Below, piece by piece: positions 17,663-24,450 of a stretch of DNA of 58,362 nucleotides. The stretch is from a virus, in IMG/VR virus record IMGVR_UViG_3300047469_000377, positions 1 to 58,362 of that record; one strand, written 5' to 3'. Within the stretch, counting starts at the first letter, position 1. Each line of letters starts with the position of its first letter. The notes under the pieces were generated by a model. That model had not been told where the DNA came from, ran no database searches, and saw nothing but the letters and a program-made list of their open reading frames with translations. The position numbers and the translations under genes are program-made.

Positions 17663-18148
17663 ATGAGCGGCTTCAAACCCTACAAGCCGCGCCAGCCGGG
17701 CACGATCTACAAGGTCATCGAGACCGCGTTCGATCAGGCCGGCGGCCTCGACGTGGTCGCCGACCTGATCGATGAGACGCGGGACTGGTGCTACTCGGCC
17801 GCCGATCCGAACCGCGAGCGTCGCCAAGCCGCCTCCCTGACCTACTCCCACGTTCGCACCATGACGCGGGCGGGCCTGGGCGTCGTGGCCTTCGCCGAGG
17901 AACTGGCCACCCTGGCCGGCGGCGTCTTCATGCCGCTGAACATCGCCATCACCGATCCCGAGCTGCAGGGCGCCCTGGCCAAGTACTCGCTGGAGAGCGG
18001 CCAGGCGATCGCCGAGATCATCAACCGCGCCGCCGATGGCAAGTTCGATGCGCCGGACGCCACGGCGGCCCTCCCCGAGATCGATGACGCCCTGCGCGCC
18101 CTGATGGTGGTGCGGGCCTTCGCCGTGCGCGTCGCCGGGTCCGGCTGA
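17663..18148 (+). CDS. Possible CII/CP76-type regulator
   Basis: The first gene of the rightward operon, 161 residues, starting MSGFKPYKPRQPGTIYKVIE. The stretch IYKVIETAFDQAGGLDVVAD followed by LIDETRDWCYSAADPNRERR recalls the phage regulatory protein CII (CP76) family, which has an HTH with a 'stepwise helices plus Asn-Pro' pattern. The rest is helical (QAASLTYSHVRTMTRAG). The position just downstream of the switch also fits an early regulator, but similarity is weak by eye. Confidence 0.55.
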   Translation: MSGFKPYKPRQPGTIYKVIETAFDQAGGLDVVADLIDETRDWCYSAADPNRERRQAASLTYSHVRTMTRAGLGVVAFAEELATLAGGVFMPLNIAITDPELQGALAKYSLESGQAIAEIINRAADGKFDAPDATAALPEIDDALRALMVVRAFAVRVAGSG

Positions 18149-18776: not shown

Positions 18777-19223
18777 ATGGCCGTCCGCCTGAAGGACCTC
18801 CCCGCCAAGATCCAGGCGCTGGCGCTTGCCGCAGGCGTGAAGCCCGACAAGCCGAAGTCGAAGTTCGGGAACAAGCCGATCACCGTCGATGGTGTCTGGT
18901 TCCAATCGACCAAGGAAGCCCAGCGGGTTCAGTCGCTCAAGCAGCTGGAGCGGGCCGGGGTGATCAAGGACCTGACGCTGCAGCGACCGTTTCCGATCGT
19001 GGTGACCAACAAGATCACCGGCGTCGAGACGACCGTCGGCGTCTACAAGGCCGACGCCGACTACGTGATCGTTGATCCCCGCCGCGCGCCGATCATCGGG
19101 CGCAAGGCCGGCGACTGGATCGTCGAGGACGTGAAGTCCGAGGCTACGGCCGGCGGCGAGGCCTATCGCCTCCGCAAGAAGCTGGTCGCGGCAATCCACG
19201 GCGTCGAAGTGGTGGAGGTCTGA
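18777..19223 (+). CDS. DUF1064 PD-(D/E)XK-type nuclease
   Basis: The 148-residue protein follows the DUF1064 pattern: KFGNKPITVDGVWFQSTKEA (E47), then LKQLERAGVIKDLTLQRPFP, KADADYVIVD (D93/D95) and WIVEDVKSEAT (E117-D-V-K120), then YRLRKKL. This is the restriction-endonuclease-like fold with the acidic-Lys catalytic core. Phage members are thought to act as junction or flap-type nucleases in recombination or replication; the precise substrate is unknown. Located three bases after the preceding stop in the replication operon. Confidence 0.85.
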   Translation: MAVRLKDLPAKIQALALAAGVKPDKPKSKFGNKPITVDGVWFQSTKEAQRVQSLKQLERAGVIKDLTLQRPFPIVVTNKITGVETTVGVYKADADYVIVDPRRAPIIGRKAGDWIVEDVKSEATAGGEAYRLRKKLVAAIHGVEVVEV

Positions 19224-19224
19224 G

Positions 19225-20136
19225 ATGGCCGTGTCCGCCGAGCTCAACGCCCAGGCCGCGATGTTGCGCAGCCAGGGCCTGACCTATCCCCAGATCGGCG
19301 CCGCGATCGGTCTGCACCACGACCAGGTGCGCCGCACGCTGCGCAGCGGGCCCAGCCCGGCCAGCTGGTGGACGCCGGAGCGCGACGCCGAGGCGGCACG
19401 CCTCTACCAGGCCGGCGAGACCCTGTCCGACGTCGCGGCGCAGATGGCGGCGCCCAGCAAGAGCGCGGTGATGTGCCGTCTCCGCCGGCTCGGCGTGGTG
19501 AGGTCCGAAGAGATCAACGTGGCGAACCGCGCCAGCAGCGGCCACCGAGCCGCGGCACGCACCAATGGCGGCAAGTCGTCCGACCTGGCGTGGTGGACCC
19601 CGGCGCGCGACGCCGAGGCCGCGCGGCTGCTGCTGTCAGGCATGGCTTTCGCCGTGATCGCACGGACCCTCGGCGCGACCAGCAAAAACGCGGTTATCGG
19701 TCGCATGCACCGGCTCGGCGTCAAGCGGCCGAAAGCGAGCCCGCCCGTCGCGATCGCCCCCGTCGTGCGGATCGCCGCGCCGCGCCCCGCGCCGACCCCG
19801 CGCCCCGCGCCGACCCCGCGCCCCGCGCCGACGGCGACCCCGAAGCCGAGCAGCTGGCGCGAGCCGGTGGTCAAGCTGGTCAGCGATCGCCCCGCGCTGG
19901 CCGTGGCCGCCGCCTTCGCGCCGCCGAACCCGAAGCCGTTCGAAGAGCGCCTCCGCTCGCAGTGCGCCTGGCCCATCGATCAGGTCGACGGGTCGATGCT
20001 GGCCTGCTGCGAGCCGATCAGCGGCCAACGGTGGTGCGCCCATCACACGGTGATCGGCTCGCGCCCGGCGCGGACGCCGAAAAAAACGCCGTTCCAGCGC
20101 CGGGCCGGCGGTTTCGACTTCCGGAGGCTGGCGTAA
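19225..20136 (+). CDS. GcrA-like regulator with three HTH units
   Basis: The 303-residue protein is a GcrA-family regulator with an expanded N-terminus. An HTH-like unit at 11-40 (AMLRSQGLTYPQIGAAIGLH) precedes two GcrA-type units beginning WWTP at 48-91 and 123-166 (ATSKNAVIGRMHRLGVKRP). A repeated Pro-Ala linker (RPAPTPRPAPTP, about 187-203) follows, then a Cys/His domain QCAWPI (C247) ... ACC (C261-262) ... WCAHH (C271, H273). Host GcrA has one HTH and a C-terminal domain that contacts sigma-70, and it favours GANTC-methylated promoters. Function on phage or host promoters is inferred. Confidence 0.85.
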   Translation: MAVSAELNAQAAMLRSQGLTYPQIGAAIGLHHDQVRRTLRSGPSPASWWTPERDAEAARLYQAGETLSDVAAQMAAPSKSAVMCRLRRLGVVRSEEINVANRASSGHRAAARTNGGKSSDLAWWTPARDAEAARLLLSGMAFAVIARTLGATSKNAVIGRMHRLGVKRPKASPPVAIAPVVRIAAPRPAPTPRPAPTPRPAPTATPKPSSWREPVVKLVSDRPALAVAAAFAPPNPKPFEERLRSQCAWPIDQVDGSMLACCEPISGQRWCAHHTVIGSRPARTPKKTPFQRRAGGFDFRRLA

Positions 20137-20837
20137 TGGTCACGTCCCGCAACCCGGAACGCGCGGCCGCGGCCCAGAAGCTGCGGGCCCAAGGGCTTAC
20201 GATCGAGGCGATCGGCGATCGGCTGACCCTTAGCACCAGCGCGGTGCGCCGACACATCGGGGGCATCTCCACCCCGCGCGGCGGCACACCCTGGGACGAC
20301 GTCCGGGTCGAGTTGCTGAAGAAGCTATGGCGCGAAGGTTTCAGCGGATCTCAGGCGGCCAAGATGATCGGCGGCGTGTCCCGCTGCGCCGTCATCGCCA
20401 AGGTCCATCGCCTCGGTCTCACCCGCAGCGCCGATCTCAACTCGGCCCAGCATGGCCGCGCCGGCAATTCGCCGGGCGCCAAGGCGGCACGGAAGACGCT
20501 GTCGACTCCGCGTCCCACTCAGCCGGCCCCGCGCCGGGTTCCGGCGGCGGCGGCGACCGAGGCGTCGACGGCGCTGCGGCCCGGCCCGACCTTGGCGCCT
20601 GCCCCCATCGAGTTGGCGCCGAGCCCGCTGTCGGTGAACGCACTGCCCTTCATGGAGCGGGGGGCCAAGCAGTGCGCCTGGCCGATCGAGATCGACGGCG
20701 AGATGAAGGCCTGCTGTGACCCCGTGGTCAGCAAGGGCTGGTGCGCCGTTCACTTGAAGCGCGGAACGGTGCCGACCCCGCCGCGCATGAAGGACACCCA
20801 CGCCTGGGCGAAGAACACCGCGAGGCGGTTCGCATGA
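20136..20837 (+). CDS. Second GcrA-like regulator
   Basis: Starts on the last base of the preceding stop (TAATG). In 233 residues, an extra HTH (8-40, LRAQGLTIEAIGDRLTLSTS) precedes a canonical GcrA domain at 51-95: WDDVRVELLKKLWREGFSGS, then AAKMIGGVSRCAVIAKVHRL. The linker is Pro/Ala-rich, followed by QCAWPI (C190), KACC (C203-204) and WCAVH (C213, H216). This copy is closer to host GcrA than its neighbour. Both have an identical layout, so a local duplication followed by divergence is likely. Confidence 0.87.
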   Translation: MVTSRNPERAAAAQKLRAQGLTIEAIGDRLTLSTSAVRRHIGGISTPRGGTPWDDVRVELLKKLWREGFSGSQAAKMIGGVSRCAVIAKVHRLGLTRSADLNSAQHGRAGNSPGAKAARKTLSTPRPTQPAPRRVPAAAATEASTALRPGPTLAPAPIELAPSPLSVNALPFMERGAKQCAWPIEIDGEMKACCDPVVSKGWCAVHLKRGTVPTPPRMKDTHAWAKNTARRFA

Positions 20838-21127
20838 ATCGCCGCGAGACCTTCGTCGTCAACAAGATCGACGGTGACGCCGAGCGCGCCGCCCGCAAGG
20901 GCGCGATGCGGGAGATCGCCCTGGACGCCGTCGCCGGCGCGATGCGCGAGTTCGTCGATCCCAACGACCGCAGCGAACTGGCCCGCGAGCTCTGCAGCGC
21001 CTCGGCCATCACCGCTGTGTCAGCCTGTGGCGCGACCTCGACGGCCAGTCACCTGGCCAAGCTGTCCGGCCAGGTGTTCCGCGCCGGTGACGACGTGACC
21101 CTGCAGCAGAAGAGGAGGGGGCGTTGA
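20834..21127 (+). CDS. Hypothetical protein, 97 aa
   Basis: ATGA overlap with the GcrA-like gene. A charged helical protein (MNRRETFVVNKIDGDAERAA) with Ala/Ser-rich C-terminal half (ASAITAVSACGATSTASHLA) and a basic end. The last codons contain the AGGAGG site for the following gene. No family is recognised. Confidence 0.65.
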   Translation: MNRRETFVVNKIDGDAERAARKGAMREIALDAVAGAMREFVDPNDRSELARELCSASAITAVSACGATSTASHLAKLSGQVFRAGDDVTLQQKRRGR

Positions 21128-21693: not shown

Positions 21694-21965
21694 TGGCCGA
21701 GGCGACCAAGCCCATCGACACCGTGACGGTGCACCGTACGGCGATCGCTGAGATTTTCGCAGAGGCTGACCGCCGTGCGAACGCAGGCGAGCCCAACGGG
21801 ACGCCGGCCCAGTTCGAGGGCGAGAGCGATTCCGCGTTCCACCTCCGCGCCGCCGACACCTTCATCCACATCGCCTGCGAACACGCTGCAGGCGGGCCCT
21901 GGTTCCCCGGCATCACGGGCCTGCACGCGAAACAGCGTTCTGAAGCGGCGGAGCCCGTGCTGTGA
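21693..21965 (+). CDS. Hypothetical protein, 90 aa
   Basis: Starts ATG at 21693, coupled to the preceding stop (TGATG). Mostly helical with polar residues (AIAEIFAEADRRANAGEPNG, FHLRAADTFIHIACEHAAGG). No recognised family. The stop overlaps the GTG start of the cytosine methyltransferase. Confidence 0.65.
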   Translation: MAEATKPIDTVTVHRTAIAEIFAEADRRANAGEPNGTPAQFEGESDSAFHLRAADTFIHIACEHAAGGPWFPGITGLHAKQRSEAAEPVL

Positions 21966-22651
21966 CCCGGCCGCTTCTACTCGATCTCTTTTGCAAGGCC
22001 GGCGGCGCCGCGCAGGGCTACTACGATGCCGGGTTTGAGGTTGTCGGCGTCGATATCGAGCCGCAGCCGCGCTACCCGTTCGAGTGCATCCGAAGCGATG
22101 CGATGGCCCTCGACTGCGACTTTCTTGAACGCTTTGCGGCCTTTCACGCCAGCCCGCCCTGCCAGGGTTACAGCGCGATGCGCCATGCACCCGGCGCAAG
22201 AGGTGCGCCAAAGCTGATCCGACCCGTGCGGCAGATGCTGCGCGCCACAGGGCGGCCCTACATCATCGAGAACGTCGAGCAGGCCAGGATCGACATGATC
22301 CGTCCTGTAGCGCTTTGCGGGTCCATGTTCGGTCTCGGCGCCGAGGGGCACCAGTTGCGCCGGCATCGTCTGTTCGAGAGCAACATCCCCATCACCGCCC
22401 CGCGCCCGTGCGCTCATGCGTCGCCGGTTATCGGCGTCTATGGCGGACATGCTCGGCGCCGCGGCGCGGCTCACGGCGGTCGCGGGACGCGCGACGTCTG
22501 GATCGGCGGGCACAAGGGCGCGGCCAGCCTAGCGCTAGGCATCGACTGGATGACGCTCGAAGAACTGTCGGAGTCGATCCCGCCCGCCTTCACGAAGCAC
22601 CTCGGTGCGCAGCTGCTCGAGCACTTGGCCCAAAGCGCGAGGGCCGCATGA
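21962..22651 (+). CDS. C5-cytosine DNA methyltransferase
   Basis: The 229-residue protein starts with GTG at 21962 (GTGA overlap). Motif I is LLLDLFCKAGGAAQGY (5-20), motif IV has the catalytic Cys67 in ASPPCQGYS, motif VI is IIENV (101-105), motif VIII QLRRHR (131-136), and a motif X-like FTKHLGAQL lies at the end. This is the Dcm/HhaI fold but short: only about 50 residues lie between motifs VIII and X, so target recognition is minimal. It probably protects phage DNA against restriction or marks it; no partner restriction enzyme is nearby, so it looks like an orphan. Confidence 0.9.
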   Translation: MTRPLLLDLFCKAGGAAQGYYDAGFEVVGVDIEPQPRYPFECIRSDAMALDCDFLERFAAFHASPPCQGYSAMRHAPGARGAPKLIRPVRQMLRATGRPYIIENVEQARIDMIRPVALCGSMFGLGAEGHQLRRHRLFESNIPITAPRPCAHASPVIGVYGGHARRRGAAHGGRGTRDVWIGGHKGAASLALGIDWMTLEELSESIPPAFTKHLGAQLLEHLAQSARAA

Positions 22652-22863
22652 GCGAGATCGAACGCGCCCTCAGGGTCGACGCCGGCATCCGCGCCGGGAT
22701 CTCGACCGCTGCCGCCCTGCAGATCGAACGCGCCCGCGCCGGTAGCGCCTTGCGCGAGATCTATCTGCTCGCCGGCGAGGCCGCGCTCGACGCCGTCATC
22801 ATCGCCCTGCGCCGTGAAGCGGTGGTCGGCCATCCCCCTATCGTTGGAGACCTGACGCCGTGA
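22648..22863 (+). CDS. Hypothetical protein between methyltransferases, 71 aa
   Basis: ATGA overlap with the cytosine methyltransferase and GTGA overlap with the following adenine-type methyltransferase. Helical and Ala-rich (AGISTAAALQIERARAGSAL, ALDAVIIALRREAVVG). Could be a small partner of one of the methyltransferases; no motif is recognised. Confidence 0.65.
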   Translation: MSEIERALRVDAGIRAGISTAAALQIERARAGSALREIYLLAGEAALDAVIIALRREAVVGHPPIVGDLTP

Positions 22864-23666
22864 CCTCCTTTTCCCGCGTCGAGACGATCGGCGACTCCAC
22901 GCTTTACTTGGGTGATGCGCTTGCCGTGATGCAGGCCGTGCCCAGCGTGAAGGCCCGCGCGCTGATCTCCGACCCACCGTATTGCTCCGGCGGGTTCACC
23001 GAGGCCGCCAAGCGATCGGCGAAGGGGCAGGGCCTCCGGTCCGAAACCTTGCGCGAAAGCGACTGGTTCGGCGGCGACAACATGACGTCCGCCGGTCTGC
23101 AATGGATGCTGCGGTCGATCGCCGTCGCCTTCAAGGGCCACGCCTTGGCCGAGGACTGCACCGCCAGCTTCTTCGCCGACTGGCGCATGGTGCCGCTGCT
23201 TGCCACGGCCATCGAGAGCGCGGGGCTGCGCTATCAGGGCATGCCGGTCTGGGACAAGCAGGCCGCGGGCCTGGGGACCGGCTTCCGGGCCCAGCACGAG
23301 TGCATCATGCACTTCTCGATCGACACCCCGCGCTATCACTCCAAGAGCTACGGCAACGTGATCCGCGCGCCTCGCATGTCGTCCGACCGCGACCATCCCA
23401 CCGAGAAGCCGGTCATGCTGATGGCCGCCCTGGTCGATGTGCAGACCGAGCCGGGCTCGCTGGTGCTGGATCCGTTCATGGGATCGGGCAGCACGGGCGT
23501 CGCGGCCGTGGGCATGGGGCGCCGCTTCGTCGGAATAGAGCATGACCCGGTTCACTTCGACACAGCCTGTCGCCGGATCGAGGCGGCTTACAACCAGCCG
23601 CGCCTTTTCGCCGAGCCCCCCCCCCGGTCCGTCCAGCCGTCCATGTTCGCGGACGGTGCGGCATGA
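22860..23666 (+). CDS. Beta-class DNA methyltransferase (DPPY)
   Basis: The 268-residue protein starts GTG at 22860. Motif IV is DPPY (38-41), the target-recognition region is about 65-160, then HPTEKP (179-184) and motif I DPFMGSGSTGVAA (204-216) with EHD (227-229) following. The order (IV before I) puts it in the beta class, to which CcrM also belongs; DPPY commonly indicates N6-adenine methylation. It ends ...PPPRSVQPSMFADGAA, encoded through a run of 10 C. The sequence specificity cannot be read from the sequence. Confidence 0.88.
   Translation: MTSFSRVETIGDSTLYLGDALAVMQAVPSVKARALISDPPYCSGGFTEAAKRSAKGQGLRSETLRESDWFGGDNMTSAGLQWMLRSIAVAFKGHALAEDCTASFFADWRMVPLLATAIESAGLRYQGMPVWDKQAAGLGTGFRAQHECIMHFSIDTPRYHSKSYGNVIRAPRMSSDRDHPTEKPVMLMAALVDVQTEPGSLVLDPFMGSGSTGVAAVGMGRRFVGIEHDPVHFDTACRRIEAAYNQPRLFAEPPPRSVQPSMFADGAA
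23616..23625 (+). repeat. C10 homopolymer in the methyltransferase C-terminus
   Basis: Ten consecutive C (after GAG, before GGTCC) encode the start of the EPPPRS tail, 14 codons before the stop. Runs of this length slip during replication; a change of one base alters only the last dozen residues. The paralogue downstream has the same feature at the same position. Confidence 0.9.
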
Positions 23667-23709
23667 TCCGGCATCGGCCCCCCCTCAAACTTAACTGTGG
23701 CGTGGCGGC

Positions 23710-24450
23710 ATGAGCCGGATCGAGATTATCGGCGACGCCACGCTGTATCTCGGCGACTGCCGCGAAGTCTTGCCTACGCTGGGTGAAGTCGATGCGGTGG
23801 TCACAGACCCGCCGTTCGGAATGTCGTTTCAGTCGAATTTTCGCGGACAGCAGCACGCCAAGATCGCGAACGATGACGATGTCGGCCTGTTGCAATGGGC
23901 TTGTGAAATCCCGGTTCGCCACAGCCGCTATGTCTTCTGCCGGTGGGATAACATCCGGGACGTGCCAAAGCCAAAGAGCCTGGTGACGTGGGTCAAGAAC
24001 AACTGGTCCATGGGCGACCTGGAGCATGAGCACGCCCGGCAAACTGAGGTTGCCTGCTTCTATCCCGGCCCAGACCATCGCTTCCCCCGCGGTCGCCCGA
24101 CGGACGTGATCGAGGCTGCTCGGACCGGGAACAACTTCCATCCCACCGAGAAGCCAGTCGCGCTCATGGAGGCGATGATCCGATGGACGGAAGGGCGAGT
24201 GCTAGACCCGTTCATGGGATCGGGAACGACCGGGGTCGCATGCTCGCTGCTGTCACGGCCCTTCATCGGTTGTGAAGTCGACGAGAGCTATTTTGATACC
24301 GCCTGCCGGCGCATCGAAGAGGCGTTTAAGCAGCCGCGCCTTATGATCGAGCCCCCCCCCCCCGGCCGTTCAGCCATCCATGTTCTCGGACGGTGCGGCA
24401 TGAACCGGGTTCGGAACCTCGCTCCATATGAATATTGCGAGGCGGCCTGA
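23710..24450 (+). CDS. Beta-class DNA methyltransferase (DPPF), frameshifted tail
   Basis: The 246-residue protein is a paralogue of its upstream neighbour. Motif IV is DPPF (33-36), followed by HPTEKP (144-149), DPFMGSGTTGVA (166-177) and CEVDESYF. Its shared end (QPRL, then PPP) runs into 12 C. In the frame read here the tail becomes GRSAIHVLGRCG... and stops in a TGATG overlap with dnaB. In the alternative frame after the C-run the DNA reads AVQPSMFSDGAA and stop (24365-24403), almost identical to the paralogue's VQPSMFADGAA. The C-run has therefore shifted this gene's tail by one base. The catalytic core is unaffected. Confidence 0.88.
   Translation: MSRIEIIGDATLYLGDCREVLPTLGEVDAVVTDPPFGMSFQSNFRGQQHAKIANDDDVGLLQWACEIPVRHSRYVFCRWDNIRDVPKPKSLVTWVKNNWSMGDLEHEHARQTEVACFYPGPDHRFPRGRPTDVIEAARTGNNFHPTEKPVALMEAMIRWTEGRVLDPFMGSGTTGVACSLLSRPFIGCEVDESYFDTACRRIEEAFKQPRLMIEPPPPGRSAIHVLGRCGMNRVRNLAPYEYCEAA
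24352..24363 (+). repeat. C12 homopolymer with evidence of slippage
   Basis: Twelve C after GAG encode PPPP. Eleven C would restore the paralogue-like ending AVQPSMFSDGAA; twelve put the gene in a frame that ends on the dnaB start. This is the longest homopolymer I noticed in the window. Confidence 0.9.

Follow-up and report, generated by a model that had tools for sequence, protein, structure and literature searches.

Tandem GcrA-Family Genes with Added DNA-Binding Heads in a Temperate Phage

Results

Locus and gene neighbourhood

The DNA analysed (58,362 bases, referred to below as the window) is an IMG/VR virus record of a temperate tailed phage with genes for an integrase, a CII-like regulator, DnaB, terminase, portal, protease, capsid and tape measure. 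Two adjacent open reading frames on the + strand, P0001 (19225..20136, 303 aa) and P0002 (20136..20837, 233 aa), have one base in common at TAATG. A Shine–Dalgarno-like GGAGG (19214–19218) precedes P0001, and GGAGG is also found before P0002 (20123–20127). A long frame running across both genes (19368–20837, 489 aa) was discarded as a high-GC artefact, the true start of P0002 being the ATG at 20136.

The pair lies between DnaB and the CII-like gene (17663..18148, +; PHROG 101, 9.6e-7), which is placed near the head of the early operon holding P0001 and P0002. It is bounded directly upstream by a DUF1064/Holliday-junction-resolvase-like gene (18777..19223, +) and directly downstream by a conserved 97-aa gene (20834..21127, +). 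Phage GcrA genes often adjoin replication genes, with helicases, primases and initiators as the commonest downstream neighbours, and the window is no exception. Just 3′ of the pair, a C5-methyltransferase-like gene and two N6/N4 DNA methyltransferase genes follow one another within the early operon (21962–24450); the first of the latter (22860..23666, +; PF01555, 7.3e-23) shares the operon of the GcrA pair, and the second follows at 23710..24450 (+). The terminase gave its best match with Azospirillum phage Cd (43.7%), in which a search for GcrA found none. The host of the window phage is very probably an alphaproteobacterium.

Domain architecture and predicted folds

Both proteins were matched as wholes by the Pfam GcrA profile (PF07750; 76.9 bits for P0001 and 72.9 bits for P0002, gathering cut-off 26.9; E-values of 2.9e-21 and 4.9e-20, above chance). 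Within the window the profile matched at three places (19369–19563, 19594–20082 and 20292–20753), each above the cut-off and together taking in all three DNA-binding domain (DBD) regions beside the sigma-interacting domains (SIDs). The tandem pair of GcrA-like genes that the first-pass annotation had proposed for 19225–20837 was thereby confirmed.

P0001 starts with an extra HTH (aa 5–40; 19237..19344, +) that belongs to HTH_23 (Pfam 31.7 bits, cut-off 24.6), followed by DBD1 (aa 48–91; 19366..19497, +; 29.7 bits for the PF07750 match at 19369–19563), DBD2 (aa 123–167; 19591..19725, +; PF07750, 5yiv match with rmsd 0.5), a Pro/Ala-rich linker (about aa 172–228; 19738..19908, +; mostly of low pLDDT and free of helices) and the SID (about aa 236–281; 19930..20067, +; Foldseek matches to 5yix_B and 7ye2_G). 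P0002 has an HTH_23 unit (aa 7–42; 20154..20261, +; Pfam 27.4 bits, cut-off 24.6), a single DBD (aa 52–96; 20289..20423, +; PF07750, 5yiu match with rmsd 0.4 and 64% identity), a linker and the SID (aa 170–213; 20643..20774, +; AlphaFold2 model and Foldseek match). The architecture originally read from the sequence, an extra HTH with two GcrA units in one protein and with one in the other, thus stands, with the correction that the first HTH is HTH_23 and not a recognisable GcrA unit.

Structures were predicted with AlphaFold2 from 65-row alignments of family members. Three trihelical units were obtained for P0001 (helices 5–16/21–28/32–40, 51–62/67–74/79–88 and 126–137/142–149/154–164) and two for P0002; in both proteins pLDDT was high in the HTH/DBD helices, the SID was confident and most of the linker was low. 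Caulobacter GcrA structures ranked first in Foldseek for both models, with matches to the DBD (5yiu/5yiv, rmsd 0.4–0.5), to the complex of the SID with sigma70 domain 2 (5yix_B) and to the activation complexes 7ye1 and 7ye2. Small domains joined by flexible linkers account for the weak E-values of the whole proteins (1.5e-3 and 4.1e-3). P0001 was also aligned, weakly, to bipartite HTH domains that bind composite sites (Tc3 transposase, paired domains). The NCBIfam equivalog sig70cofacGcrA gave 52.3 and 80.1 bits against the 280 needed. Judged by sequence, P0001 and P0002 are members of the GcrA family and not orthologs of the cell-cycle regulator.

The Cys/His motif

The C-terminal Cys/His motif reads CAWPIDQVDGSMLACCEPISGQRWCAHH in P0001 (C247/C261–C262/C271/H274) and CAWPIEIDGEMKACCDPVVSKGWCAVH in P0002. 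The CAWPI...CC...WCAxH pattern is present as first described, but on sequence comparison it is the ordinary GcrA SID, a hallmark of the family, and not an added feature: its C-W-P, C, C and H all have counterparts in Caulobacter GcrA, and among 65 GcrAs from phages and cells there is little or no variation at the Cys/His positions. Both SIDs are of a form typical of phages, marked by a CC pair, a short loop and a preceding stretch such as PFEER or PFMER, and DNA patterns built on this CC-type SID retrieved dozens more proteins of phage origin.

A SID without any DBD was also seen in phage proteins or frames 81–111 aa long (L247:4134-4391(-), L253:4010-4342(-), L254:578-856(+), L262:2650-2958(-), L263:467-709(-) and L280:2797-3075(-)), some in loci cut by contig ends (L247). 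These are possibly sigma70-occupying proteins.

Recognition helices

The canonical GcrA recognition helix is RNAVIGKVHR, in a DBD fold that also has a conserved W. All DBD models have this fold, and it is the recognition helix that varies: DBD2 of P0001 is near-canonical (KNAVIGRMHR), the DBD of P0002 is host-like except for C33 and A37, and DBD1 of P0001 is the most diverged (KSAVMCRLRR). Positions 32/33/37/40, invariant in 110 cellular GcrAs, are K/S/C/R in DBD1, K/N/G/H in DBD2 and R/C/A/H in P0002. DBD1, having lost most recognition-helix residues, may not bind DNA in the manner of GcrA. In L007, L011 and L047, which are phage proteins with more than one DBD, it is likewise the unit distal to the SID that has diverged. 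The Cys33/Ala37 combination of P0002 also occurs in L007, in its second DBD, a hint of a common altered readout. Such differences between the heads, at positions that never vary in the cellular set, suggest composite sites and not repeats of one site, and the three DBDs more likely read different half-sites. A promoter scan stayed at chance level and identified no promoter or target site.

Added heads in cells and phages

GcrA was present in 245 of 385 alphaproteobacterial genomes. All 110 cellular loci examined had exactly one DBD, starting 0–6 residues after the Met, and one SID, in agreement with the single HTH ascribed to host GcrA at the outset; odd cellular forms are under-sampled in this set because the 110 loci were best matches. 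Neither P0001 nor P0002 has such a single DBD at the extreme N-terminus. When a combined HTH+DBD model was run against the 385 genomes, the listed matches were all but confined to the DBD, and most of the few extending into the HTH crossed stop codons, a search that is weak against rare cases because prophages are strain-specific.

Viral architectures were counted over 105 clusters of SID proteins. Three DBDs were found in 1 cluster, two in 8, one in 90 and none in 5; the raw two-DBD count of 9 includes P0002, whose N-terminal HTH was scored weakly as a DBD (14.8 bits). The eight two-DBD clusters are P0001, L007, L011, L047, L245, L257, L255 and L232. An N-terminal HTH added to one DBD occurs in P0002 and two other phage clusters, and among the viral loci examined two SID-plus-DBD genes in one locus were found in the window only. 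No match to P0001 was obtained by tblastn against phages and plasmids, and the HTH+DBD model found no relative across the viral contigs. That P0001 and P0002 are a real GcrA-family variant with added DNA-binding heads is well supported.

Other phage proteins combine such units in further ways. In one, a SID is combined with three HTH/GcrA-type units in succession (L309:5179-5931(-)). Two genes adjoining a phage GcrA (L060:5196-5996 and L075:5102-5986) encode a Cys-rich N-terminus, HTH units and a C-terminal unit resembling the GcrA DBD, without SID, and small phage proteins from three loci (L004:5168-5581, L005 and L006) place an HTH before a GcrA DBD, again without SID.

Duplication and origin

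The SIDs of P0001 and P0002 were reciprocal best matches among 188 SIDs, and their HTHs align without gaps over 40 aa (0 of 5000 shuffles as good). The match of the post-DBD linkers is weak by itself (170 of 5000 shuffles as good), and a motif after the DBD is possibly common to both. Sequence comparison thus supports the two as paralogs. DBD1 and DBD2 of P0001 (24/45 identical) were reciprocal best matches among 212 DBD units, which indicates an internal duplication. The DBD of P0002 is closest to cellular GcrA (32/44); ranked against it, those of P0001 come 188th and 192nd among 211.

Two viral records, L276 (IMGVR_UViG_3300044294_000577) and L335 (IMGVR_UViG_3300033997_000547), surfaced only through the CC-type SID DNA pattern and the conserved downstream gene. 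Each holds, in the order of the window, the DUF1064 gene (53% identity between window and L276), one HTH-DBD-SID gene, the 97-aa gene (57% identity) and a further shared gene, whereas the window has two GcrA-type genes in the slot. The HTH passes the Pfam cut-off in L335 (28.4 bits) and falls below it in L276. The 97-aa marker gene had no match in the 385 alphaproteobacterial genomes. Because the two syntenic relatives hold a single gene between the same flanking genes, the pair is taken to have arisen by duplication; these single genes also make HTH-DBD-SID an established phage form, of which the window would be a duplicated and elaborated version.

The duplication within the phage that the tandem layout had been taken to show is thus upheld as to paralogy, but it may have come before or after the split from these relatives. 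In a tree the window pair, L276 and L335 group together (95/93) with P0002 outermost (86/81), a placing by which the genes may have duplicated before the single-copy relatives branched off; HTH similarity points the opposite way on P0001 and P0002 as a clade against L276 and L335.

GANTC avoidance

GANTC occurs 51 times in the phage against 106.7 expected (0.48), the strongest depletion among 16 XYNY'X' sites, followed by TGNCA (0.65). In 20 clear genes it occurs 21 times, compared with 40.0±4.1 after synonymous shuffling. The same avoidance is known from CcrM-bearing alphaproteobacterial genomes (PMC3973325), and the phage therefore looks adapted to a GANTC-methylating host. The avoidance is a general host signature too and is no proof that P0001 or P0002 reads GANTC or m6A. 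The two phage methyltransferases scored 60.8 and 58.2 bits with the NCBIfam CcrM equivalog (cut-off 830); since they are not CcrM orthologs, GANTC methylation would depend on the host.

Discussion

Comparison with known systems

Caulobacter crescentus GcrA (PF07750; PDB 5yiu, 5yix, 7ye1, 7ye2) has the same order of DBD, Pro/Ala-rich linker and C-terminal Cys/His SID, and its DBD superposes with rmsd 0.4–0.5. It has one HTH, whereas P0001 and P0002 have three and two N-terminal HTH units, substitutions in the recognition helices, a shorter CC-type SID loop and a place in a phage replication operon. In the literature searched, descriptions of phage GcrA are confined to a single homolog (phiCbK-like phages, PMC3556154). 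The phage-borne family members of phiCbK-like phages, Synechococcus phage Ssp-JY42 and Rhizobium phage RHph_X2_24 that were examined differ from the window pair in being single genes with one DBD or one divergent N-terminal HTH.

Brevundimonas phage vB_BgoS-Bajun encodes a protein with two GcrA DBDs (aa 14–58 and 71–115) and a SID (UTC29682.1; L232:988-1695), but as a single gene without HTH_23 and with a canonical rather than CC-type SID. It is annotated only as a GcrA cell cycle regulator and, coming from an isolated phage, is a practical laboratory model. Several HTH/DBD units before a GcrA SID are also found in L007, L011, the L047/L245/L257 group, L255 and L309 (three units), though in other loci, with other units and spacing, and no tandem SID-bearing pair was found there. 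The closest relatives found remain the genes of L276 and L335, which have the architecture of P0002 and the same flanking genes but one gene instead of two and one DBD.

Proposed function and alternatives

In Caulobacter, the SID of GcrA binds sigma region 2, the DBD binds methylated promoter DNA and open-complex formation is stimulated (review, PMC7403470). We consider it fairly probable that P0001 and P0002 are duplication-derived early lytic sigma70 cofactors whose HTH array reads a composite site and redirects the host holoenzyme. A mechanism plausible from sequences and models can be outlined. Both proteins would be early products of the CII-to-DnaB replication operon; the SID would dock on region 2 of the host primary sigma factor, the flexible linker would tether it to the N-terminal units, and promoter DNA would be read by the HTH array. 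The added heads (HTH_23 in both proteins, the second GcrA DBD in P0001) would enlarge the one GcrA site to a composite site, so that the holoenzyme, with transcription activated, could be redirected to phage or selected host promoters. An ancestral HTH-DBD-SID gene would have been duplicated to give P0001 and P0002, with the internal DBD duplication added in P0001.

The pair might instead divide the labour, with P0002 activating through its host-like DBD and P0001 mainly occupying sigma region 2, excluding host GcrA and so switching host cell-cycle promoters off. The resemblance of the P0002 DBD to cellular GcrA, the low ranks of the P0001 DBDs against it and the SID-only proteins of other phages fit this arrangement, but P0001 retains a near-canonical DBD2 and all HTH folds, and three heads would be superfluous for a pure decoy; we regard it as unlikely. 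Small folds of the HTH type are able to form contacts with other proteins. The extra units could accordingly serve oligomerisation or protein contacts, or be neutral by-products of duplication, leaving the SID-proximal DBD alone to read DNA. The strong divergence of DBD1 would suit that explanation, which we hold to be rather improbable: HTH-DBD-SID is kept in three separate phages (with the HTH of L335 above and that of L276 below the Pfam cut-off), and eight other clusters of phage proteins also have added heads. The model of the first-pass annotation, several identical heads on an array of spaced m6A GANTC sites, could draw on the tandem DBDs of P0001 and on the GANTC depletion, by which leftover sites may be meaningful, but is very improbable given heads that are unlike at cell-invariant positions, a first HTH from another family and a SID-distal unit diverged in L007, L011 and L047 too.

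Beyond the favoured reading of the pair as early sigma70 cofactors with an HTH array, we suggest tentatively that multi-headed phage sigma70 cofactors could use GcrA tethers with two or three DNA readers to retarget the host holoenzyme to composite, partly methylation-gated promoters, the cell-cycle epigenetic switch of the host thus being captured for lytic timing. GcrA is unusual among activators in riding sigma70 and reading methylated DNA. Phage GcrAs with added heads are natural swaps and fusions that bear on how site choice is built and on whether the ability to read methylation can be retained, lost or combined, and they offer a testable route by which lytic growth may be tied to the host cell cycle.
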